Assembly: GCA_017547165.1 (NCBI GenBank)
Contig: JAFYQK010000024.1
Location: 1-64,000 of the forward strand
Reading direction: 5' to 3'
Length of the DNA stretch: 64,000 nucleotides
From: Bacteroidaceae bacterium
Lineage (GTDB): Bacteria > Bacteroidota > Bacteroidia > Bacteroidales > Bacteroidaceae
Shown: piece by piece, positions 3,029 through 64,000 of the stretch
How the letters are laid out: each line of letters opens with the position of its first letter
How positions within the stretch are numbered: position 1 is the stretch's first letter
Position numbers and translations under genes: made by a program
The notes under the pieces: generated by a model
The model's input: only the letters and a program-made list of their open reading frames with translations
Told to the model about the DNA's origin: nothing
Database searches by the model: none

Positions 3029-4849
3029 CTATAAATTCTTGTCAAGATTGTTAATAACGTTGGTGGCGGATGTGTAGGTTTTGTCCATATTAGCAATAGG
3101 GTCGCCTGGTGCAAATCTTGCGAACTCGCACGATTCGATGACTTCCATGTATTGATGGATTAATGTTGGGTCAACTCCACGTGATGAGAGTGTTTCGGAG
3201 ACATTCTCCTTTGAGAGATGGGTCATTGGTATGTTGAGTTTGTCACTGACATAGTTGAGCAGTGCTCTCAGGAGTTCTTCGTAGAAGGGGCCTACTTCTT
3301 GCTTCTTGAGTAGTTTGTGGGCTTGTTTCAATCGCTTGCTTGCTTCTTTGCCTGCACGCTTGCCGCGCTTTCTTATCAAATCGGCATTGGACTTGGCATA
3401 ACGATGGAAAGCAATAAGGAGGACTATAAAGAGGAGTGTCAAACCTACATATACAAGCACATAAGCGGTGCTTGCAAAAAAGCTGTCGATGCTCTCTTCG
3501 ATATCGGGATTACCATTCTTTATATAATGTATGTCTGAAGATAGTATGCGCAAGTCCTCTTTCTCCTGCATAGGAGTACCTGCCACTTGCTGTCCCTTAG
3601 CGACGGCGAGTTGGAATGTGTCGGAGGTGAGGGTGACATATTTCTTTGACTCGGGATTGAAATAGACAAATTCCACGGGGGGGATAGTATAGTTTCCTCC
3701 ATGGCGTGGTACTATAACATAGTCGAAGGTGATGCTTCCCTTGGCTCCTGATGTGGTGTTGGTAGTCTTGGCTGTTTCCTTGGGGGTATATAATTCAAAA
3801 TCCTTGGGTGCATTGACAACCGGGGCTTTCATGAGTTTCATGTTTCCCTGTCCGGAGACAACGAGTTTGAGGGTGGCAGCATCGTTGGTATTGAGCTGCT
3901 GGGGAGAGAGGGTGGCGTCCATAGTGAACTTACCTACTGCTCCGGAGAAATTGTTTGGAGATGGTGTGGGGAGTGACTGTACGTCGATCTCTACCTTGGG
4001 AGTGCTGATGGTTTTGTTTACAATCTGGGTGAGTGATCCACCACCAAAGAAAAAATCAAATGGGTCGGCAGAATGATTGGTTACAACAACCTCGGCATCA
4101 AAGGAGATGCTGGGGATTGTGAGTTTTCCGCTTTTTTGAGGGAAGAGGACATACTGGCGCCAAATGGCGGTGCCATAGTTACGCCCATTGTAGTTTTCGT
4201 ATTTTAGTGACAGCTGTGCCTTGTTGTTGAGTTCCTGACAATGAAATCCATCTAACTCTGGCATATCACCAGAGAGCTGACGAATATTAACAAGGGTATA
4301 GAGTTTGTAGGTAAGTACAACGGCTTCCTGCTCAAAAACCTTTGTCTTATTGGCAGAGGCGGTGATGAAAAGGTCGCGTGCATTGACAGAACCTGTAGCG
4401 GATGGGCGATTTCCGGTTGAAGAGGAGTTTGATGAAGAATTTGATGAGGTGCTGCCTTGAGAACCACCAGACGATGGGAGGACAGTGATGGTGGCAGTAT
4501 TACTGCGAATGGTCTTGTCTGATAACTTGACAGTGGCTGAGGGCAGTTTGTGCTCACCTTCCTCCTTGGCAAGAAGGGTGTAGGTAAAGGTAACAGAGCT
4601 TGTGTGGGTGGTCTTTCCGTTTATCATCTGGAAAGAGCTCTGACTGCTGGTAGAGGGACCATAGAGATACTCAAAGCCTGTGAATTCACCTACCTGGATA
4701 TCTTCCACATCCTGAGTATCGACAATATACCTGACGTTTATCTTTTGACCGACCTCGCATGCATCCTGAACCTGAATACGAACGGATTGTGCATATGATG
4801 CGGAGATAGTGATTGCCAGTATAGACAAAACTAAAAATATCCTCTTCAC
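3029..4849 (-). CDS. batD: BatD oxygen-tolerance family protein
   Basis: 606 residues. A signal peptide (residues 1-20, SYAQ) is followed by several immunoglobulin-like beta domains typical of BatD. A Ser/Gly/Thr-rich linker lies at about 127-150. One membrane helix lies at about 455-477, and the rest is a basic, helical cytoplasmic tail. Most of the protein is therefore periplasmic and anchored near its C-terminus. The family partners with the VWA proteins BatA and BatB encoded upstream. Spacing is 66 bp after batC and 10 bp before batE. A second, shorter BatD-like protein lies earlier in the same operon (7778-8899). Confidence 0.92.
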   Translation of the reverse strand: MKRIFLVLSILAITISASYAQSVRIQVQDACEVGQKINVRYIVDTQDVEDIQVGEFTGFEYLYGPSTSSQSSFQMINGKTTHTSSVTFTYTLLAKEEGEHKLPSATVKLSDKTIRSNTATITVLPSSGGSQGSTSSNSSSNSSSTGNRPSATGSVNARDLFITASANKTKVFEQEAVVLTYKLYTLVNIRQLSGDMPELDGFHCQELNNKAQLSLKYENYNGRNYGTAIWRQYVLFPQKSGKLTIPSISFDAEVVVTNHSADPFDFFFGGGSLTQIVNKTISTPKVEIDVQSLPTPSPNNFSGAVGKFTMDATLSPQQLNTNDAATLKLVVSGQGNMKLMKAPVVNAPKDFELYTPKETAKTTNTTSGAKGSITFDYVIVPRHGGNYTIPPVEFVYFNPESKKYVTLTSDTFQLAVAKGQQVAGTPMQEKEDLRILSSDIHYIKNGNPDIEESIDSFFASTAYVLVYVGLTLLFIVLLIAFHRYAKSNADLIRKRGKRAGKEASKRLKQAHKLLKKQEVGPFYEELLRALLNYVSDKLNIPMTHLSKENVSETLSSRGVDPTLIHQYMEVIESCEFARFAPGDPIANMDKTYTSATNVINNLDKNL

Positions 4850-4915
4850 TATATTATCTTATTTAGTTTATAAACGATTCTTATGAAATGACTCTACATG
4901 GGGGAATCAAGAGTA

Positions 4916-5665
4916 TTACCATTGCTTAAGTAAACGGCGGCGTGGTGCGTCTTGTTGCTGGCGCTGTATTTTCTCTTGAGTCTCTTTTTCGTTACGCATA
5001 GCGGCTTTAAGGATTCGCTCGGCGTTCTCTTTTGACATTGCATCCTTTTGTTCAGCAGGTTGTTGTTGCTGTTGTTGCTTATCTTCCTTGTTTTCCTGGG
5101 GTTGGGGTTGCTCCTTCTTGTCCTTTCCCTGCTGGTCCTGTTGCTTGTCCTGTTGCTTGTCCTGGTCCTTTTGTTGCTGGTCGTCAGACTTATCCTGCTG
5201 GTCGTTTTGGTTTGACTGATTCTTCAAATGCCAAAGGGCAAGGACGTAATTGTAACGGGTTTCGTTGTTGGAGGGATTGTTGCGAAGTGATTCCTTATAG
5301 CTTTCGACTGCCTCGGAATATTTTTGCGAGGCCTGAAGCAAGACTCCCATATTGTGATATATGTCGGAAAGGTTCTTCTTGTCTTTCTCGTATTTGATAG
5401 CGGCAAGGAATTCCTTCATCGCTTCCTGAGGTTTACCCTGGCGGACAAGAGCGGTACCGAGATTATAGCGTGCAATGGAATAGGTGGAGTCTATCTCAAG
5501 TGCTTTTTTATATTGAATAATGGCCTTGTCGGAGTAGTCTTTTCCGCCAACGGTGTCGCACATAAGCCTGTTGCCTCGACGTACATAGTCGCGGATGGTT
5601 TGGGCATCGGCAAAGGATGCTGATAATGAACAGATAATAAGAAGTATAAAGATGCGTTTCATCAT
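4916..5665 (-). CDS. batC: BatC: secreted TPR protein with Q/K/D-rich tail
   Basis: 249 residues. A signal peptide (about 1-21, ADAQ) precedes three TPR units (about 25-150; the patterns YNLGTALVRQGKPQEAM and YHNMGVLLQASQKYSEAV are clear). A low-complexity run rich in Q, K and D follows (about 152-212), and a basic end RRRLLKQW. The protein is presumably periplasmic and gives protein contacts between BatA/BatB and BatD. The Q-rich tract makes the DNA here repetitive (GTTGCTGTTGTTGCT type) but keeps frame. It lies 17 bp after batB in the operon. Confidence 0.88.
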   Translation of the reverse strand: MMKRIFILLIICSLSASFADAQTIRDYVRRGNRLMCDTVGGKDYSDKAIIQYKKALEIDSTYSIARYNLGTALVRQGKPQEAMKEFLAAIKYEKDKKNLSDIYHNMGVLLQASQKYSEAVESYKESLRNNPSNNETRYNYVLALWHLKNQSNQNDQQDKSDDQQQKDQDKQQDKQQDQQGKDKKEQPQPQENKEDKQQQQQQPAEQKDAMSKENAERILKAAMRNEKETQEKIQRQQQDAPRRRLLKQW

Positions 5666-5682
5666 ATCAAGTTCGAAAAATA

Positions 5683-6711
5683 TTATTTCTTTCTTGTAAA
5701 AAAGGTGAATCTTTGCAGGACGTGATTCTTGCGCTCTAAAAGCAGTACATCCAAGAGCAGGAAGAGGAGTGAGAGCAGGAGGAAACTTTGGAACTGCTCG
5801 TCGTATTCGGAAAAGATTTGGGATTCCATTTCAACCCTTCCGAGGTTGTCGACATACTGGTCAAGTTTCTTCTGTGCAGAACTGCTGTTGTCGACGTATA
5901 TGTAATTGCCGTTGCCTGCGTTGGCAATGCTACGGCACATGTCTTCGTTGAGTTTGGATATTACGGTATTACCTTCGTTATCGATGATATACTTGCCAGT
6001 ACCGGGAATGGGTATTGGTGCACCGTTGGGGGTACCTACTCCCAACATATATATGTGGATACCTTGGTCGGCAGCTTCTTTGGCAGCTTCCTCTGCCCCA
6101 CCCTCGTTGTCTTCACCATCGGTGATAAGGAATATGGCTTTGGCTACTCCCTCGCGCTTGGTAAAACTGTTAGAAGCCAGAGATATTGCGGCAGCAATGT
6201 CGGTTCCCTGCATCTCTATCATTGATGGGTTAATGGTTTCGAGAAACATCTTTGCGGAAACATAGTCGCTTGTTATCGGCAACTGGACATAAGCTTGACC
6301 GGCATAGACAATGAGTCCTATCTTGTCGTCTGTCATATTGTCAACAAGATTGGATACCATCATCTTAGCCTTTTCCAAACGATTGGGGCGTACATCCTCC
6401 GCCAACATACTATTACTAACATCAATAGCAATAATAGCCTCTATGCCAGTACGTTTACGGGTATCGATTCTTGTTCCATATTGAGGGCGTGCCAAAGCAA
6501 TGACCAAAAAAAGGAATGAGAGTTGCAGAAACCAGAACTTTAATTCTCTACGCAGAGGAGAAACGTCCTTCATCAGGGGAGTCAGCAATTCTGGATCACC
6601 ATATCGCTTCAGACTTCTTCTTTTCTTATATGTCCATAAATAGTGACATATCGCAAAAAGAGGTATTAACAACAGAAGGTATAGATATTGCGAATTTTCG
6701 AATCTGAACAT
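5683..6711 (-). CDS. batB: BatB: membrane VWA-domain protein
   Basis: 342 residues with two N-terminal membrane helices (about 8-25 and 58-75), a von Willebrand factor A domain and a C-terminal helix (about 308-327). The metal-binding MIDAS motif is intact: DVSNS at 97-101, with a later Thr and TDGEDN. The protein closely resembles BatA, its immediate upstream neighbour, and the pair probably arose by duplication and may heterodimerise. The MoxR ATPase at the head of the operon is expected to act on these VWA proteins as a chaperone-like partner. It is separated from batA by 21 bp. Confidence 0.93.
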   Translation of the reverse strand: MFRFENSQYLYLLLLIPLFAICHYLWTYKKRRSLKRYGDPELLTPLMKDVSPLRRELKFWFLQLSFLFLVIALARPQYGTRIDTRKRTGIEAIIAIDVSNSMLAEDVRPNRLEKAKMMVSNLVDNMTDDKIGLIVYAGQAYVQLPITSDYVSAKMFLETINPSMIEMQGTDIAAAISLASNSFTKREGVAKAIFLITDGEDNEGGAEEAAKEAADQGIHIYMLGVGTPNGAPIPIPGTGKYIIDNEGNTVISKLNEDMCRSIANAGNGNYIYVDNSSSAQKKLDQYVDNLGRVEMESQIFSEYDEQFQSFLLLSLLFLLLDVLLLERKNHVLQRFTFFTRKK

Positions 6712-56691: not shown

Positions 56692-57545
56692 CAACATATC
56701 ACATACACATCATCTGCACGGCATTGGTGGTGCTGATTGTTATAGTGGGCATAGTATGGTTCTACCGCCATCAGTGCCTACTTCGCGAACGAGCACATCT
56801 GATGCACGAGGCCATAAGAAACCGCGACTTCAGTTTCCGTCTGCCCGTAAAGGGATTGTTCTTTGGAGAGCGTGCCCTGCAGGAGACGGTGAACAACTTG
56901 AGTCAGGACATCAACACACTGGTGGCACAGAACGAGATAGAGTCGTGGCAAAAGTTGACCCGTGTGCTCACGCACGAGATAATGAATGCCGCGGCACCCA
57001 TCTGCAGCATCAGCCAGACATTCCTTTCGGCACCCGACATCAAGGGCAGCGTCTACGAGGAAGGCATCAAGGCCATATACCAGACAAGCAAGGGTATGTC
57101 CAACTTTGTGGAGAACTTCCGTAAGATAACGATGATTCAGGAACCTATCATAACCGAGGTGAACCTGCGCACACTCTTCGAGTCGCTTAAGTGTATGTAC
57201 TCCGATGCCAATTGGAATATAGAGGACAGCACCGACCGCAATATTATGGCGGATGAGGATATGCTACGACAGGTGCTCATAAACATAGTGAAGAATGCCA
57301 TCGAGGCTGGTGCCGACAAGATAGATGTACGCTATGGCACCGCCCTGCAAATAAGCAACAACGGCACTCCCATACCTGCCGATGTGGCACGCGAGATATT
57401 CATTCCCTTCTTTACCACAAAGAGCCACGGTTCGGGCATAGGTCTGTCACTCTCGCGCCAGATGCTCATAAAGCAAGGCATGAACCTGCAACTGGCCGAA
57501 CGTCCCATTGCCGGCTATCACACCACATTCGTCATCAGTATTTAA
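56688..57545 (+). CDS. Sensor histidine kinase
   Basis: 285 residues from the ATG that overlaps the regulator stop (ATGA); the longer open frame from 56613 lies inside the regulator. One membrane helix (about 5-27), short linker, H box TRVLTHEIMNAAAP with H96, N box NIVKNAIEAG, G boxes SNNGTPIP and GSGIGLSL. No sensory domain, so signals may be sensed through the membrane segment or the adjacent ABC exporter. Convergent with the YgbA_NO gene, sharing 11 bp. Confidence 0.9.
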   Translation: MTTYHIHIICTALVVLIVIVGIVWFYRHQCLLRERAHLMHEAIRNRDFSFRLPVKGLFFGERALQETVNNLSQDINTLVAQNEIESWQKLTRVLTHEIMNAAAPICSISQTFLSAPDIKGSVYEEGIKAIYQTSKGMSNFVENFRKITMIQEPIITEVNLRTLFESLKCMYSDANWNIEDSTDRNIMADEDMLRQVLINIVKNAIEAGADKIDVRYGTALQISNNGTPIPADVAREIFIPFFTTKSHGSGIGLSLSRQMLIKQGMNLQLAERPIAGYHTTFVISI

Positions 57546-58035
57546 TTTTGGACATAAGGAAGTCCCACAAGTGCCTTATGGCAAAAACAGGATTGTGCAA
57601 GAGCATGCGAGGACCGGAATAGCGCATAACCTGACGTATCTGTTGGCGCATAGCAGGCTTATAGCAATGCACTGGGCAACGAGTGCAACTGGGTTTATCC
57701 TCGCCAAACTTGCAATGCTCCAGACGCTTGTGGGCATAATCCAACAAGGCCTGGCACTGAGGGCAGAGAGGGGGAACGGGGAGAGGTGAGTGTGGAACGG
57801 TGAGCGGATGAGCGGATGAGCGTTTGGCAGGAATAGGAGAAATCGGAGTAATCGGAGTAATCGGAGTACTCTGAGAACTCAGAGAACTCAGAGTATTCAG
57901 ATTATTCAGATTACTCGGATTACTCGGACAATTCTGACTCTCCCTATAGTTTTCAGTTTTTGTATGCTTCTTCCCCTTGCAATAGAGGCGTATCATGGCC
58001 TCTACCGTCTGCTTTTCTGTCTCTATCTTGCTCAT
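57535..58035 (-). CDS. YgbA_NO (nitrous oxide-stimulated promoter) family protein with repeat insert
   Basis: About 166 residues from Met at 58035 (MSKIETEKQTVEAMIRLYC); the open frame continues to 58086. Family core: LYC near 18, then CPQC, CKFGEDKPSCTRCPVHCYKPAMR and MRYSGPRMLLHNP. The cysteine set suggests a metal or Fe-S site; in enterobacteria the family responds to nitric oxide. A Ser/Pro/Thr/Asn-rich insert of about 65 residues separates the N-terminal helix from the cysteine core and is coded by a 9-bp microsatellite. Confidence 0.8.
   Translation of the reverse strand: MSKIETEKQTVEAMIRLYCKGKKHTKTENYRESQNCPSNPSNLNNLNTLSSLSSQSTPITPITPISPIPAKRSSAHPLTVPHSPLPVPPLCPQCQALLDYAHKRLEHCKFGEDKPSCTRCPVHCYKPAMRQQIRQVMRYSGPRMLLHNPVFAIRHLWDFLMSKIKY
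57832..57939. repeat. 9-bp microsatellite, 12 units, inside a coding region
   Basis: Twelve consecutive 9-bp units of the type A(A/C)TC(G/A)GA(G/T)T, the best being AATCGGAGT three times in a row, spanning exactly 108 bp. Length changes by whole units keep the frame, giving protein repeats such as TPI and SSL/NNL triplets. Confidence 0.9.
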
Positions 58036-58167
58036 AATGTGTTTTCCGGTTTCCATCCACCCCCTCCCCCCTTCGGGGTACTCCACCCTGTCTCAGGGGG
58101 AGAAAGTGGGTGATAGCATTAGCAGTTTTCCTTTTTATTCGCTTCGACTCATCAAGCTAAAGCAAGT

Positions 58168-58203
58168 CCGTTTTCACCTTTCCGTTTTCACCTTTCCGTT
58201 TTT
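58168..58203. repeat. 14-bp tandem repeat at the receptor gene 3' end
   Basis: CCGTTTTCACCTTT twice (58168-58181 and 58182-58195) plus a partial third copy. Read on the minus strand it codes the last residues NGKVKTER of the TonB receptor. Confidence 0.85.
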
Positions 58204-60168
58204 CCAGAGTCTTTCCACATCCACACTGATGCCAGCCATAAGGTTTATGCCCAGGGTGACGGGAGAATTGAAATAGTATACCTCGGGAGCATAGTTGAAG
58301 ACATTGTCCAAAGCGATGTTCAGGCTTACGGCCTTGCCAAGGCGGTTCTGCAACTGAAGTTTCCAGATGGTATAGGCAGGGTTGTGCACATGTCGGGTGG
58401 CAAAGGGATAGTCCATCTGCATAGTTTCATAATCCACGGACGAGAGCACACGACCCAGCACGGAGAAGGTGGTGCCATAGAATGAGGTCCATTGCTTGTC
58501 CCAATCAAGACGAAGGTTGAACGAGTGAGGACGGGCAGGACAATATGGTGTCATACCGCCTTGTGAGAGCCATTCGCGTGTGAAGACATAGTTAGCACGA
58601 GCCTTCAGGCTATGTCCGCCATCCAATGTCCATCGTGCCTGGGCAAGAAAGTCAATGCCAAGCACCTGCGCACTGGGCAGGTTCATATACTGGATGTAGT
58701 ATTCGCCCATAGAGCCCTGTTGTGGTGCGGTGGAGGTTATCCTGTCGCTGATGTCGTTGTATGATACTGAAGCAGAGAGGTTGTAGTTCTTCCAGGCATA
58801 TTCGGCAGACAGATTGACATTGTGCGAGCGCTCCGCCACGAGGTTCTCATTACCTTTTATATATATATCGCCCACCATATTGAAGTAGGAATACTTCTCC
58901 TTTAGCGTAGGCGCACGGAAACCTCCGGCATAACCGCCACGCAAGGTCAAGGCATCGAGTTTGTAGCACAGGGCCAGTTTGCCGGTCAGTTGCGAAGAAG
59001 CCTTGCCATCGGAAAGACAATCCCATCGCAAGGCACCAATCACCTCCCAACGCTTGCCAAGGAAGCAATCGTACTGGGCAAAGAGGTCGCCCGTGTGCTG
59101 CACCCTCCCCACTCCATCGGCAAACTGATATGTGCGGAGATAATCGCGCATATAATCGCCACCAACGGTGAGAATGTCCTTGGTGCGCAGAGTACGGTTG
59201 TACATCGTGCGAACGGACATCTGCAAATTGCGATAGTCGAGCACATCGGTTCCCCAGAGATGGAGGAAGTCCGACTTGTCGTACTGGTCGTATGAGGCAG
59301 ACACATCAAGGAAATCCTTCTTTGAAATGGTGTACTCTGCCTTGAGGCCTCCAGAGAAGTCACGGCATCGCTCGTAGACATCGATGTCGGTGGTCATCTC
59401 CTTGAAGAAATAACCTGCACGGGCGGTAAGTTTCAGGTTGTCAATGGGTGTGTACTGAAGTTTGTCCTTCACACTGAGAGTGGTACCACCATACACGCGT
59501 CGGAACTCGCAATCGTCGGCATAGTCCATGCACACGGTATAGTTGTCCACCGAGGTGTATTGCATATCCAGCATATTGCCAACCCTACCCTGCTTCAAGC
59601 CGAAAACACCACCATAGCGTTGCTCGCGATGGTCGGCAAGACGCGCATTGAGGTTGAGCGACCAAGGTTCTTGGGCACTACGCGTGATGATGTTTATCAC
59701 ACCACCCACGGCGCCGGCACCATAGAGGGCTGATTGCGCACCGCGAACTATCTCTATGCGCTCCACATTGTTCATGTCTATGCGCGAGAAGTCGACATTC
59801 TCCATTGTCTCGCCAGCCAGACGCTCGCCATCCACAAGAATGAGCACACTCTGTCCGGCAAAGCCACCAACGTTCATGTTCAGTTTCTGGTTCATGGAGT
59901 ATGTAAACTCCACACCAGGCAGTTCCTGTTGAAGAAGGTCGCGCAGGTCTGTGGCATCGGTTTGTGCAATGTCCTTCCTGCTGATGACACGCGTGAGCAC
60001 AGGAGTGTCCTTGAGCGAGCGAGGTGTGCGTGTGGCGGTGATGACCAGTTCGCCCATATCCACATAACTGGTTGTATCTATGCTCATAGTATGTGCGTGA
60101 GCACCAAGAGAAATGGCACACACAAGCACTATGGCAAGACAGTGGCGATATATACTGGTCAGTTTCAT
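58174..60168 (-). CDS. hmuR: TonB-dependent heme receptor, HmuR-like
   Basis: 664 residues. Signal peptide (1-25), plug domain with LRDLLQQELPGVEF and ALYGAGAVGGVINIITR, then a 22-strand barrel. FRAP (GGFRAPTLKE) and NENL stand where heme receptors have YRAP and NPDL. It lies downstream of a HmuY-like gene, supporting heme or hemoprotein uptake. The C-terminus continues past a typical barrel end (LMAGISVDVERLW) into NGKVKTER, coded by a 14-bp repeat; receptors normally end with an aromatic residue. Confidence 0.88.
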   Translation of the reverse strand: MKLTSIYRHCLAIVLVCAISLGAHAHTMSIDTTSYVDMGELVITATRTPRSLKDTPVLTRVISRKDIAQTDATDLRDLLQQELPGVEFTYSMNQKLNMNVGGFAGQSVLILVDGERLAGETMENVDFSRIDMNNVERIEIVRGAQSALYGAGAVGGVINIITRSAQEPWSLNLNARLADHREQRYGGVFGLKQGRVGNMLDMQYTSVDNYTVCMDYADDCEFRRVYGGTTLSVKDKLQYTPIDNLKLTARAGYFFKEMTTDIDVYERCRDFSGGLKAEYTISKKDFLDVSASYDQYDKSDFLHLWGTDVLDYRNLQMSVRTMYNRTLRTKDILTVGGDYMRDYLRTYQFADGVGRVQHTGDLFAQYDCFLGKRWEVIGALRWDCLSDGKASSQLTGKLALCYKLDALTLRGGYAGGFRAPTLKEKYSYFNMVGDIYIKGNENLVAERSHNVNLSAEYAWKNYNLSASVSYNDISDRITSTAPQQGSMGEYYIQYMNLPSAQVLGIDFLAQARWTLDGGHSLKARANYVFTREWLSQGGMTPYCPARPHSFNLRLDWDKQWTSFYGTTFSVLGRVLSSVDYETMQMDYPFATRHVHNPAYTIWKLQLQNRLGKAVSLNIALDNVFNYAPEVYYFNSPVTLGINLMAGISVDVERLWKNGKVKTER

Positions 60169-60223
60169 TGACTATGTTTTTATGTCTGCATGTTCAATAG
60201 GCAAAACAGAGGTCGTCAGTTTT

Positions 60224-60251
60224 CCGTTTTCACCTTTCCGTTTTCACCTTT
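60224..60251. repeat. 14-bp tandem repeat just after the HmuY-like gene
   Basis: CCGTTTTCACCTTT twice, identical to the pair at 58168-58195, ending exactly at the stop of the HmuY-like gene. Confidence 0.85.
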
Positions 60252-61009
60252 CAATACGGATATACAACATCTATGGTGAGGAAACCCTTCGTTCCGGCCT
60301 CGCTCATATAACTTCTCAAGCGTAGGGCAGCCACGGTATCGTCGTCCATACGAAGGAGATAGACACGATTGGATGCCTCGTACTTTGGTGGTGGCGTGGA
60401 GAAATCCATCCTTACCCACTCCGTCAGCACAAGGTTGACATCGGAGGTCTGGTACCATATCTTGTGATCGAACATGGAGGAGAAGTCCACTATGCACTGA
60501 TGCATGGTCCATTGGTCGGACACGAAAGCCTCATCGGCAAAGGTTTGTGAAGAGGATGGCAGGTCGGCAATGCTATGATAATCGGTACGAAGCACCGCAC
60601 CGCCATTGGTGCGCACATCAAAATGATGTATGGCCATATCCCATGCCTCGGGTTCGGGTTGGGTGTCCACCGGTCTCAACTCCAATTGCTCATAGCGCGA
60701 ACCATAAACACTATATTTTGCCCACTGACTTTTGCCATCCCACTCGCCTGTGAGTGAAGTGGGTATAGGCATAGTGGTGATGGTGCGACGGTGCAGGTCG
60801 AGATATATCCACTCGTCATAATCCCTGGCATCGAGCACTATGGAGAAACGGTTGGGAGTATCGCCCTGATTGAAACCTAATTGCAGGGACTCATCGCTTG
60901 GCGGCTCATCGTAGATACCATCAAACAAACCATTGCACCCTGTCAGAAGGCACGAAGCCAGACAGAGTGCAAGGGTATGCTTAAACTTGTATCCGAGTGC
61001 TTGCAACAT
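60251..61009 (-). CDS. hmuY: HmuY-like heme-binding lipoprotein
   Basis: 252 residues. Lipobox LTGC, then a HmuY-type beta fold: EWIYLDLHRRTITTM, AWDMAIHHFDVRTNGGA, and a C-terminal YLLRMDDDTVAALRLRSY...TIDVVYPY. HmuY captures heme on the cell surface and hands it to HmuR. The start shares an A with the stop of the upstream gene (TAATG), so translation is coupled. Which His or Met binds iron cannot be fixed by eye. Confidence 0.85.
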   Translation of the reverse strand: MLQALGYKFKHTLALCLASCLLTGCNGLFDGIYDEPPSDESLQLGFNQGDTPNRFSIVLDARDYDEWIYLDLHRRTITTMPIPTSLTGEWDGKSQWAKYSVYGSRYEQLELRPVDTQPEPEAWDMAIHHFDVRTNGGAVLRTDYHSIADLPSSSQTFADEAFVSDQWTMHQCIVDFSSMFDHKIWYQTSDVNLVLTEWVRMDFSTPPPKYEASNRVYLLRMDDDTVAALRLRSYMSEAGTKGFLTIDVVYPY

Positions 61010-61485
61010 TAGTCGATAGATTCAAACTCCTGCTTGATAGAATAAGGCATGCTGCCGTAGCTATATTCCACGGTCAACTCAACATCTCCGTCCCCGTCAA
61101 TCTCACCACTAATGGTTCCTTCTACATACTTGCCATTTTCCTGACGGAAATTATGTTTGGGAAAGAAAACTCCCTTCTCGCCATCAGCTAGTACAGGTAC
61201 ATTTTCAATAACAAAAGCGGTGATTTTCATTTCCTGACCATTGAAATTATATACCGTTGATGGCAAGGTTACATCTACATAATCGTCTGCAACAGCATCA
61301 ATACTGATACGAACTTCATCATTAAGTGGAGTGAAAGGAAAAATTGGAGGCAGATTTACCATATTGGTAACACGGCGAACAGTATAGTTTCCGTCTGCCC
61401 AGCCAGCAACAGAATCTTCAGACGAACAAGAAGCAAATACTATTACACAAAGAAGAGCCATGCTCAACTGAAATAACTTTTTCAT
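61009..61485 (-). CDS. Calycin-like lipoprotein
   Basis: 158 residues. Lipobox FASC with Cys at about 20, then a beta-barrel pattern ending GTISGEIDGDGDVELTVEYSYGSMPYSIKQEF, matching the calycin-like domain family seen next to HmuY genes in Bacteroidales. Likely surface-exposed and binding a small hydrophobic ligand or heme. It resembles the next gene upstream, especially in Y.YGSMP[YF]. Confidence 0.75.
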   Translation of the reverse strand: MKKLFQLSMALLCVIVFASCSSEDSVAGWADGNYTVRRVTNMVNLPPIFPFTPLNDEVRISIDAVADDYVDVTLPSTVYNFNGQEMKITAFVIENVPVLADGEKGVFFPKHNFRQENGKYVEGTISGEIDGDGDVELTVEYSYGSMPYSIKQEFESID

Positions 61486-61610: not shown

Positions 61611-62159
61611 CTACTGACGAAACTCGGTAACTATCTCAAAAGGCATGGTTCCAGGTTTGTAGGTCATCACGAAGGATAATGTGCCGTCTTTAGTGATAGT
61701 CCCCTCAAGCGAACCGCGTGTGCGATAAATTCCTGCTTGGATGTCAAAATCCACCTTATTGAAATATCCTCCTCCCGAGGGAAATGCTGCATACTCGACA
61801 TCTTCAAGAGTCATATTGCCAATCTCAATGGATTTGCCAAGGATACCAACAACAAACGGGTCGTCCACATTGAAAGCCTTGGTAAGTATCCTCACATAAC
61901 CCGAGTGCTCTATATGGAAGTTCTCTATACGAACCGTTGTTTGCGTCACAACAGGTCCCTGAAGATGCTCCTGTACTAAGGGAACGGTGGTATGAAACTC
62001 ACCGGAGAAATCCTGAGCATAGGTTTCCCAAGTTGGCACATCAACATCTGCCTCGGGCATATGGACATTGTCCTGCGTGCAAGATAGCATAGTGCATGCG
62101 AGCACCATACACGCCATAGCAGCACATTGACCGAAAAACCTCGCAAAACGTTCTCGCAT
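61611..62159 (-). CDS. Calycin-like lipoprotein, first gene of the heme operon
   Basis: 182 residues from the ATG at 62159; a GTG at 62168 is an alternative. Lipobox MLSC, then a beta-rich domain ending YKPGTMPFEIVTEFRQ. A paralogue of the next gene. A complete promoter lies 26 to 57 bases upstream. The 125-bp gap to the next gene holds no clear terminator. Confidence 0.75.
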   Translation of the reverse strand: MRERFARFFGQCAAMACMVLACTMLSCTQDNVHMPEADVDVPTWETYAQDFSGEFHTTVPLVQEHLQGPVVTQTTVRIENFHIEHSGYVRILTKAFNVDDPFVVGILGKSIEIGNMTLEDVEYAAFPSGGGYFNKVDFDIQAGIYRTRGSLEGTITKDGTLSFVMTYKPGTMPFEIVTEFRQ

Positions 62160-62184
62160 TCTTGTCACATTTAATTTTCATGCG

Positions 62185-62361: not shown

Positions 62362-62369
62362 TAAATTTG
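62362..62369 (+). promoter_or_regulatory. -7 element before the steroid-reductase-like gene
   Basis: TAAATTTG, 60 bases before the ATG; TTGA is nearest to the -33 position. Confidence 0.45.
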
Positions 62370-62429: not shown

Positions 62430-63197
62430 ATGAACATAGATGTTTCTACCTATCACCTCGTTCTCTGGATAATGGCATTCATGGGACTATTCGTATTCAT
62501 CACACTATATTTCGTTGATGCCGGGTATGGTAAATTCCGCAGTAACAAATGGGGGTATAGCATCAACAACAAAATAGGTTGGGTGCTAATGGAATGTCCT
62601 GCTCTTATCCCTGTATGCTACACCGTAATATCCCAGGAAACAAGCAATTTGGCTCTGCTCTTCATGAGTTTATATGCCTTGCACTATATCTACCGTAGTT
62701 TCATTTTCCCCAGCCTCTTGAAAGGCAAGAGCAAGATGCCTCTGGCCATTACCGCTATGGGAGCTATGTTTAACCTGATGAACAGCAGTCTGTTGTGTGC
62801 CAGCGTAGTATTATTTCCTACCGACGCATACACCGACATCTGTTCGTATGCAACAAATTGGAACTTCTGGGTAGGCATTGCGGTATTTTTCTTGGGTATG
62901 TACACCCACATGAAGGCCGACCACACCATACGCCATCTTCGCAAGCCTGGCGACACCAACCACTACCTGCCCAAAGGTGGCATGTTCGACTATGTCACCA
63001 GTGCCAACTACTTTGGCGAACTGCTCGAGTGGACAGGCTTTGCCATTCTGCTATGCAACCCTGCGGCATGGATGTTCGTGTGGTGGACAGCTGCCAACCT
63101 GGTACCTCGCGCTCATGCTATCAACAAGAAGTACCGCGCCGAATTCGGCAACGAACAGGTGGGCAAGCGCAAGCGTGTGATACCTTTTATATATTAA
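62430..63197 (+). CDS. Steroid 5-alpha-reductase (SRD5A) family membrane enzyme
   Basis: 255 residues, about six or seven membrane helices. The C-terminal half is strikingly like the animal enzymes: DHTIRHLRKPGDT, then LPKGGMFDYVTSANYFGE and LLEWTGFAI, then KKYRAEF...RVIPFIY. E55 (in LMECPALIP) and Y86 (in LHYIYRSF) fall where human SRD5A2 has its steroid-contacting Glu57 and Tyr91. The family reduces the 4,5 double bond of 3-keto-4-ene steroids with NADPH. Full length for the family. An Old Yellow Enzyme gene follows at 91 bp on the same strand. Confidence 0.9.
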   Translation: MNIDVSTYHLVLWIMAFMGLFVFITLYFVDAGYGKFRSNKWGYSINNKIGWVLMECPALIPVCYTVISQETSNLALLFMSLYALHYIYRSFIFPSLLKGKSKMPLAITAMGAMFNLMNSSLLCASVVLFPTDAYTDICSYATNWNFWVGIAVFFLGMYTHMKADHTIRHLRKPGDTNHYLPKGGMFDYVTSANYFGELLEWTGFAILLCNPAAWMFVWWTAANLVPRAHAINKKYRAEFGNEQVGKRKRVIPFIY

Positions 63198-63288
63198 CTG
63201 GAAAATCTATATAGTCTATAAAATATAAACAACTATAACATATAGATAATCCATAGCATCTATAAAATCTAAAAAACAACCCCAAAAT

Positions 63289-64000
63289 ATGGAAAACAAG
63301 ATATTCGAACCCGCCAAAATAGGTCCTCTCACACTGAGAAACCGCACCATACGCAGTGCTGCCTTCGAGAGCATGTGTCCCGGACACGAACCAAGCCAAC
63401 AGCTCTTCGACTATCACACCAGCGTGGCGCGTGGTGGTGTTGGTATGACCACAATAGCATATGCAGCCGTTACGGAGAGCGGACTGAGTTTCGACCGTCA
63501 GTTGGTAATGTGTCCCGAGATAGTTCCCGGCCTGAAGAAACTTACCGATGCCATACACGAGGCTGGTGCCGCGGCTGGTATCCAGTTGGGACATTGTGGC
63601 AACATGAGCCACAAGGACATCTGCGGTTGCATCCCTGTGGGTGCTTGTACTGGTTTCAACCTCTATTCTCCCACCATCGTACGCGGTCTGCGCAAGGAGG
63701 AGTTGCCCGAATTGGCAAAGAAGTTCGGCAATGCCGTAAACCTTGCTCGCGAGGCTGGTTTCGATAGCGTGGAAATACATTGCGGACATGGTTATCTCAT
63801 TGACCAGTTCCTTAACCCCTACTTCAACCATCGCAAGGACGAATACGGAGGTTCGCTCGAAAACCGTATGCGTTTCATGACCTTGTGTATCGAAGAGGTT
63901 ATGAAAGCTGCCAAGGACGATATGGCCGTTATAGTGAAGATGAACATGCGCGACGGTTTGAAGAAACCCGGCACCACCATCGACGAGAGCATACAGATAG
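63289..64000 (+). CDS. Old Yellow Enzyme family NAD(P)H:flavin oxidoreductase, cut by window end
   Basis: At least 237 codons, running off the right edge. FMN-binding TIM barrel: IGPLTLRNRTIRSAAFES, QLGHCGN, and VEIHCGHGYLIDQFLNP with H164 and H167, followed by EYGGSLENRMRF. This subgroup includes enoate reductases such as BaiCD/BaiH, which act on steroid and bile acid 3-keto-4-enes, and 2,4-dienoyl-CoA reductase. The remaining C-terminal part (possibly Fe-S and pyridine nucleotide domains) is outside the window, so electron source is unknown. Tandem placement with the 5-alpha-reductase suggests a shared steroid substrate. Confidence 0.88.
   Translation, partial: MENKIFEPAKIGPLTLRNRTIRSAAFESMCPGHEPSQQLFDYHTSVARGGVGMTTIAYAAVTESGLSFDRQLVMCPEIVPGLKKLTDAIHEAGAAAGIQLGHCGNMSHKDICGCIPVGACTGFNLYSPTIVRGLRKEELPELAKKFGNAVNLAREAGFDSVEIHCGHGYLIDQFLNPYFNHRKDEYGGSLENRMRFMTLCIEEVMKAAKDDMAVIVKMNMRDGLKKPGTTIDESIQI

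Follow-up and report, generated by a model that had tools for sequence, protein, structure and literature searches.

Does the tandem of a steroid 5-alpha-reductase (SRD5A) homologue and an Old Yellow Enzyme (OYE) in an uncultured Bacteroidales genus form a unit that converts steroids, and if so, by which route? The window, that is, the whole stretch of DNA analysed, comprises 64,000 nucleotides (contig C23, positions 1–64000, of a 2.26-Mb genome that is 84.5% complete), and the contig extends to 67222. A preliminary description had noted both genes on the same strand, and both are indeed present (PF02544, E = 1.4e-32, 113.2 bits, above the curated cut-off of 22.6; PF00724, E = 3.7e-55), each being the single match to its family in the 84.5% complete genome. 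The OYE gene runs on to 64530. Past position 64000, where it had been proposed to look for a hydroxysteroid dehydrogenase, we found a co-directional gene for a short-chain dehydrogenase (SDR), a candidate for such an enzyme, so that three genes stand in a row on the plus strand with intergenic gaps of 91 and 61 bases. The features are as follows.

61611–62168, minus strand: divergent neighbour outside the cassette, 185 amino acids, no Pfam match, with a start that reads as lipoprotein-like.
62362–62369, plus strand: TAAATTTG, 60 bases 5′ of the SRD5A start, a match to TAnnTTTG, the -7 promoter element of Bacteroidota.
62430–63197, plus strand: SRD5A homologue (AR), 255 amino acids; open reading frame, PF02544, sequence and fold matches to 7c83 and 7bw1, E55 and Y86.
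63289–64000 in the window, ending at 64530 (L002, 1290–2531), plus strand: OYE-type FMN oxidoreductase with Fe-S-like cysteines, 413 amino acids; PF00724.
64592–65440, beyond the window (L002, 2593–3441), plus strand: SDR, hydroxysteroid dehydrogenase candidate, 282 amino acids; PF00106, E = 1.3e-32.

The promoter-like match carries little weight, as the L002 stretch holds two TAnnTTTG matches against 2.79 expected, a chance-level number; a scan requiring a -33 element as well returned one site only, on the opposite strand. Upstream, the genes on the opposite strand encode, by Pfam, a small protein without a match, a calycin-like protein, an HmuY-like protein and a TonB-dependent receptor. Together with a gene for a YgbA_NO-domain protein, the last three occupy 57535–61485 (minus strand) beside the trio, and the TonB-receptor stretch can be aligned to two related loci, L023 and L024. 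The gene 3′ of the SDR, broken off by the contig end, presumably encodes a ClpB-like protein.

Profile, fold and tree all class the first protein as an SRD5A homologue; its status as a steroid 5-alpha-reductase is putative. Among solved structures, phmmer retrieved PbSRD5A (7c83, E = 5.5e-40) and human SRD5A2 (7bw1, E = 1e-25); the only further chain, the enoyl-CoA reductase art-1, lay far behind (E = 7.8e-05). An AlphaFold model of the window protein (pLDDT 77, 10-row alignment) adopts the seven-helix SRD5A fold, and a Foldseek search with this model found 7c83 (E = 1.6e-12, TM 0.79) and 7bw1 (E = 2.0e-09, TM 0.74), the next match standing at 0.18. Grouping with enoyl-CoA reductases, named at the outset as an outcome that would speak against a steroid enzyme, was looked for and is ruled out by both sequence and fold.

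We compared 73 loci of its SRD5A lineage (hereafter the cassette lineage) with 41 that belong to another SRD5A lineage of the Bacteroidales, the second lineage. The contig of the window supplied one locus; the others came from 11 named contigs, 33 places in the genus (L074 was dropped as a copy) and 70 of 94 order-wide places, the other places being either already in the set (8) or outside the comparison (16). The two groups were named after their neighbours had been seen, and a tree of 113 rows then gave the same split (71 rows, SH-aLRT 99). Within the cassette lineage, the window belongs to a subclade of six members (the window, L023–L026 and L067).

Han et al. report Q56, E57 and Y91 and the NADPH residues N160, D164, R171, N193, E197, R227, H231 and Y235 as the SRD5A active-site set (PMC7815742). 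E55 and Y86 of the window protein align with Glu57 and Tyr91 of human SRD5A2, as the preliminary description had stated, and this pair is invariant in 6/6 subclade, 65/65 other cassette-lineage and 39/39 other-lineage rows. The window protein resembles PbSRD5A and human SRD5A2 in this pair, in fold and in six of the eight NADPH residues (D164, R171, N193, E197, R227 and Y235), and differs from them by Gln56→Met, Asn160→His and His231→Ile. It thus lacks both the full QEY signature and the full set of eight NADPH residues; at 31% fold-alignment identity to PbSRD5A and 27% to SRD5A2, the claim that the animal signature is kept almost word for word is too strong. Two of the three differences are widespread: all 110 Bacteroidales rows have Met at the Gln56 position, and the His231 position, Ile in the window, is Ile, Leu or Val in 71/71 cassette-lineage rows (His in 30 of 39 other-lineage rows). 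Position 160, an NADPH contact in human numbering, is His in 6/6 subclade rows. The other cassette-lineage rows have Asn (64 of 65) or, in a single case, Asp, and all 39 other-lineage rows have Asn. N160D and H231R are reported from human 5-alpha-reductase deficiency (PMC9966410). The absence from the subclade SRD5A of Asn160, His231 and Gln56, important in studied SRD5As, is a point against a cassette function.

The second protein had been placed near the bile acid and steroid reductases. BaiCD, a bile acid Fe-S flavoenzyme, is indeed the best of the NCBIfam models listed (NF041087, E = 3e-59); however, the score of 200.7 bits falls far below the cut-off of 825 and covers only positions 2–258 of 642, as the OYE lacks the FAD/NAD(P)H half. 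What the two have in common is the N-terminal FMN barrel, whereas the OYE has only 413 amino acids and carries Lys217 at the position of YqjM Arg215. Full BaiCD identity was therefore rejected, on profile and size and not on a tree with BaiCD, given the failed NF041087 cut-off and the two-domain architecture of that enzyme. A 2,4-dienoyl-CoA reductase was rejected as well, since 1ps9 (671 amino acids, E = 1.4e-27) ranks behind YqjM (E = 1.2e-37) and its C-terminal FAD/NADPH half is missing here. The lack of an NAD(P)H/FAD domain was counted against the cassette reading.

In a tree of 53 Bacteroidales OYEs, which included neither BaiCD nor dienoyl-CoA reductase, the 39 cassette-type proteins, some of them without an adjoining SRD5A, form one group against the 14 others (SH-aLRT 100). 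Residues H164, H167, Y169, C369, C375 and C386 are kept in 39/39 cassette-type OYEs, as is Lys217, which is Arg in 14/14 of the other Bacteroidales OYEs. The conserved cysteines thus number three, compared with four in the four-Cys relatives. A structure model of the OYE was set aside (pLDDT 65, below 50 in the cysteine region). Seven stretches (L118–L124) hold a cassette-type OYE with no SRD5A in the part examined, and five of them (L119, L120, L122, L123 and L124) have an SDR match.

The third protein carries the classical SDR motifs NNAG (N88–G91), S137, Y165 and K169, and is a candidate 3-beta-hydroxysteroid dehydrogenase (3-beta-HSDH) only, 3-beta-specificity not being readable from sequence. 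In the window, Asp stands in place of the second Gly of its TGxxxGxG cofactor motif. Asp is found there in 5/6 subclade rows and also in L049, and 21 of the 26 rows outside the subclade have Gly; as L049 shares it, this replacement is ruled out as a change specific to the subclade. Loci of other families carry two SDR genes after the OYE (L044, 8600–10257; L045, 4245–5893; L171, L185, L190 and L196), perhaps encoding two dehydrogenases of different stereospecificity.

These three families have been described together before. Strains of Parabacteroides merdae, Odoribacter laneus and Bacteroides dorei are reported to convert 3-oxo-delta4-LCA to isoalloLCA, and disruption of 5AR in P. merdae to prevent formation of alloLCA derivatives; the P. 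merdae 5AR shares a cluster with genes for a predicted 3-beta-HSDH and for an NADH:flavin oxidoreductase of BaiCD/BaiH-like type, for which a 5-beta-reductase role is hypothesised (PMC10382948). The three activities are agreed on by PMC9645264, PMC10672800 and PMC12697870, and a sequential route is given for Bacteroidota in which a 5-beta enzyme turns 3-oxo-5-beta compounds into 3-oxo-delta4 compounds, 5AR turns these into 3-oxo-5-alpha compounds, and 3-beta-HSDH yields the 3-beta-hydroxy products (PMC9645264, PMC10672800, PMC10382948).

The window's 5AR-, NADH:flavin oxidoreductase- and SDR-type genes are clustered on one strand and belong to the same three families as those described for P. 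merdae (PMC10382948). P. merdae itself is not among our loci by name; Parabacteroides sp. PH5-46 (L027) is, and it has the same trio in the same order, with identities of 52, 66 and 50% for SRD5A, OYE and SDR. Since families and order recur in Parabacteroides and the P. merdae cluster is on record, the window's trio is a member of this known cluster, and most likely a cassette of the "5AR, 5BR, 3-beta-HSDH" kind of Bacteroidota that isomerises the A/B ring junction of steroids or bile acids. It differs from the P. merdae cluster in its host, an uncultured Bacteroidales genus, in an SRD5A with His160 and other subclade-only changes, and in being known here from sequence.

Our data show the gene content and order of the cassette, its families, the fold of the SRD5A and the conservation; we infer the substrates, the direction and the stereochemistry of each step as follows. 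The OYE would interconvert the 3-oxo-5-beta and 3-oxo-delta4 forms of bile acids or steroids, the membrane-bound SRD5A would use NADPH for an alpha-face reduction of the delta4 bond, and the SDR would turn the 3-ketone into a 3-beta alcohol. The net result would be the conversion of a bent (A/B-cis) steroid into a flat (A/B-trans) 3-beta-hydroxy steroid via a delta-4 intermediate. The steroid-reducing module of the preliminary description is thus best read as a module converting steroids or bile acids, an idea that is not new and in which the substrate is a matter of inference. Its suggestion that the pair lets the bacterium choose between 5-alpha and 5-beta products, or take two double bonds, comes close but is incomplete, and is less likely than the sequential isomerisation reported for Bacteroidota. 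The 84.5% complete genome gave no match to PF02275, the bile salt hydrolase family, which is a point against the cassette reading and would mean that free substrate has to be supplied by other microbes.

The SRD5A of the window's subclade has changed unusually fast around its active site. Its stem inside the genus measures 1.06–1.07 changes per site in trees; in LG+G4 trees built without constraint from 25 loci, the subclade stem takes 0.667 of a total of 6.52 for SRD5A and 0.070 of 6.26 for the SDR, and in the free OYE tree of 25 loci the subclade is not one group. Branch lengths on a fixed topology were not used, as they failed to isolate the subclade stem, the subclade not being one group in the OYE+SDR tree. 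Of the 97 SRD5A columns that are conserved both within the genus and beyond it, 12 are altered in all six members, two of which (columns 19 and 58) are also altered in the sister group. The same test gave 4/99, 1/96, 1/98 and 1/97 in four control clades, and the same rule, with smaller comparison sets, found 2/207 columns changed in the OYE and 0/76 in the SDR.

The changes include some past the catalytic Glu55 (V58A, F59L, M62V/I, W66), beside Tyr86 (F82Y, Q88Y), and further on at Q122L/I (human Q126, counted from the alignment) and I159T/N160H. Raw identity is lowest at residues 61–140; a concentration of changes in the steroid half of the protein was not significant (8/44 versus 4/53 conserved columns, Fisher p = 0.13). 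Within the subclade, dN/dS has a median of 0.158 (14 of 15 pairs; a rough value, as dS is high), which indicates a constrained gene and not a pseudogene.

The flanking DNA of L023 and L024 is 92–98% identical, mostly 97–98%, and a block of ~2.3 kb (L024, ~3967–6290) diverges strongly, spanning lipoprotein-like genes, an intergenic stretch and the first ~95 SRD5A codons, as in mosaic alleles. SRD5A may thus acquire new N-terminal sequence through recombination around its variable neighbours. The His160 change falls outside this block.

Our tentative reading is that in this subclade the SRD5A of the cassette was remodelled near the catalytic pair and the NADPH site (including Asn160→His and the human Gln126 position) while its partners stayed nearly unchanged, which might reflect altered substrate or cofactor use. 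Taken jointly with this, and as tentatively, the OYE might be a stand-alone flavoprotein, probably Fe-S, suited as the oxidative half of an isomerisation. An explanation that overlaps with the cassette reading, and that we hold to be possible rather than likely, is that the subclade SRD5A drifted to another lipid substrate or cofactor use, or was weakened. The His160 of all six members, the long stem and the excess of changed columns over controls, OYE and SDR speak for such drift, whereas the retained Glu57/Tyr91 pair and six NADPH residues, a frame open in all six members, the low dN/dS, the two changes common to the sister group and the intact cassette partners speak against it.

Plant sterols are abundant in the herbivore gut, and a module for steroid hormones or sterols has to be weighed too, in which 3-keto-delta4 steroids derived from progesterone, androgens or phytosterols would be the substrates and the OYE a true 5-beta-reductase, the two reductases giving alternative products. 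PbSRD5A is reported to prefer progesterone (PMC7815742), and gut bacterial 5-beta-reductases, of OYE type in Clostridium innocuum, to act on 3-ketosteroid hormones (PMC12238238). The reported Bacteroidota cluster, however, works on LCA derivatives (PMC10382948), and the adjoining SDR suits sequential isomerisation better than alternative products, which makes the hormone or sterol module rather unlikely next to the bile acid or steroid isomerising cassette.

The association of the genes was then considered across Bacteroidales. In 59/73 cassette-lineage loci, an OYE gene follows the SRD5A on its strand at a distance of no more than 3 kb (no more than 300 bp in 56), versus 0/40 loci of the second lineage, whose 41st locus was too short; many loci come from one genus and hence are not independent. 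An SDR match (24–100% identity) follows within 2 kb of the OYE in 40 of these 59 loci, a count limited by locus ends. The trio stays intact while the flanking genes vary among loci, and among the named relatives carrying such loci are, besides Parabacteroides sp. PH5-46, MAGs obtained from the colon of water deer and roe deer. Across the order, PF02544 (E ≤ 1e-15) was matched in 92 of 393 sampled genomes and 48 of 207 genera. Within the genus (n = 61 genomes), 24 genomes have both SRD5A and OYE, 2 have SRD5A only, 3 OYE only and 32 neither, where SRD5A was counted at E < 1e-20 and the weak PF02544 matches of G030 and G034 were left out. Counting against the cassette are the 14/73 lineage loci with no downstream OYE, four of which have a sulfotransferase gene downstream, and the 3/24 genus genomes (G002, G029 and G043) with SRD5A and OYE on separate contigs.

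Many OYEs are detoxifying enzymes, and the 14 loci without a downstream OYE would fit a lipid-tail reductase that merely happens to lie beside one, with unrelated duties for the two; given the pair in 59/73 related loci against 0/40 in the second lineage, and only 5 discordant genomes beside the 24 in which the two co-occur, this explanation is very improbable, and chance pairing is rejected: the pairing is beyond chance.

The four genus loci with the other layout (L056, L062, L070 and L075) carry, in place of the OYE gene, a gene of sulfotransferase family F8 (Sulfotransfer_3, E = 7.8e-42, as tested on L062). The SRD5A and Sulfotransfer_3-type stretches are as follows.

L056, 4439–9362: SRD5A and Sulfotransfer_3-type sulfotransferase.
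L062, 5966–9338: the same.
L070, 6020–9599: the same.
L075, 4760–7758: the same.

In L056 and L075, an epimerase/3-beta-HSD-like protein (tested on L056) is encoded between the two. A gene that we read as CysN-like, the reading resting on a GTP_EFTU match on L062, lies upstream in three of the four loci, L075 ending at the contig edge. A large helicase-like protein is encoded between it and a presumably CysD-like gene, and L056 also has an APS kinase. The L062 sulfotransferase found no match in the window's genome. By general resemblance, these loci of the genus relatives are like the Bacteroides cholesterol sulfonation cluster BT_0411–0416 (PMC9417993), whereas the window is not. As that cluster is also reported to sulfonate isoalloLCA (PMC11271093), flattening of steroids followed by their sulfonation is a natural guess for these relatives. 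In the titles and abstract openings that searches of the open-licence literature brought up, SRD5A together with a sulfonation cluster was not found.

Flat (allo and isoallo) bile acids are reported to act on regulatory T cells (PMC10672800) and to inhibit Gram-positive gut pathogens (PMC10382948). Our analysis assigns the probable isomerising cassette to an uncultured genus of Bacteroidales that has relatives in deer colon, and splits the SRD5As of Bacteroidales into one lineage that mostly lies beside an OYE and another that does so in 0/40 examined loci. The subclade SRD5As are natural variants in which the catalytic pair was kept and surrounding residues changed; if their specificity is indeed altered, a natural SRD5A would show how this drug-target fold shifts specificity.
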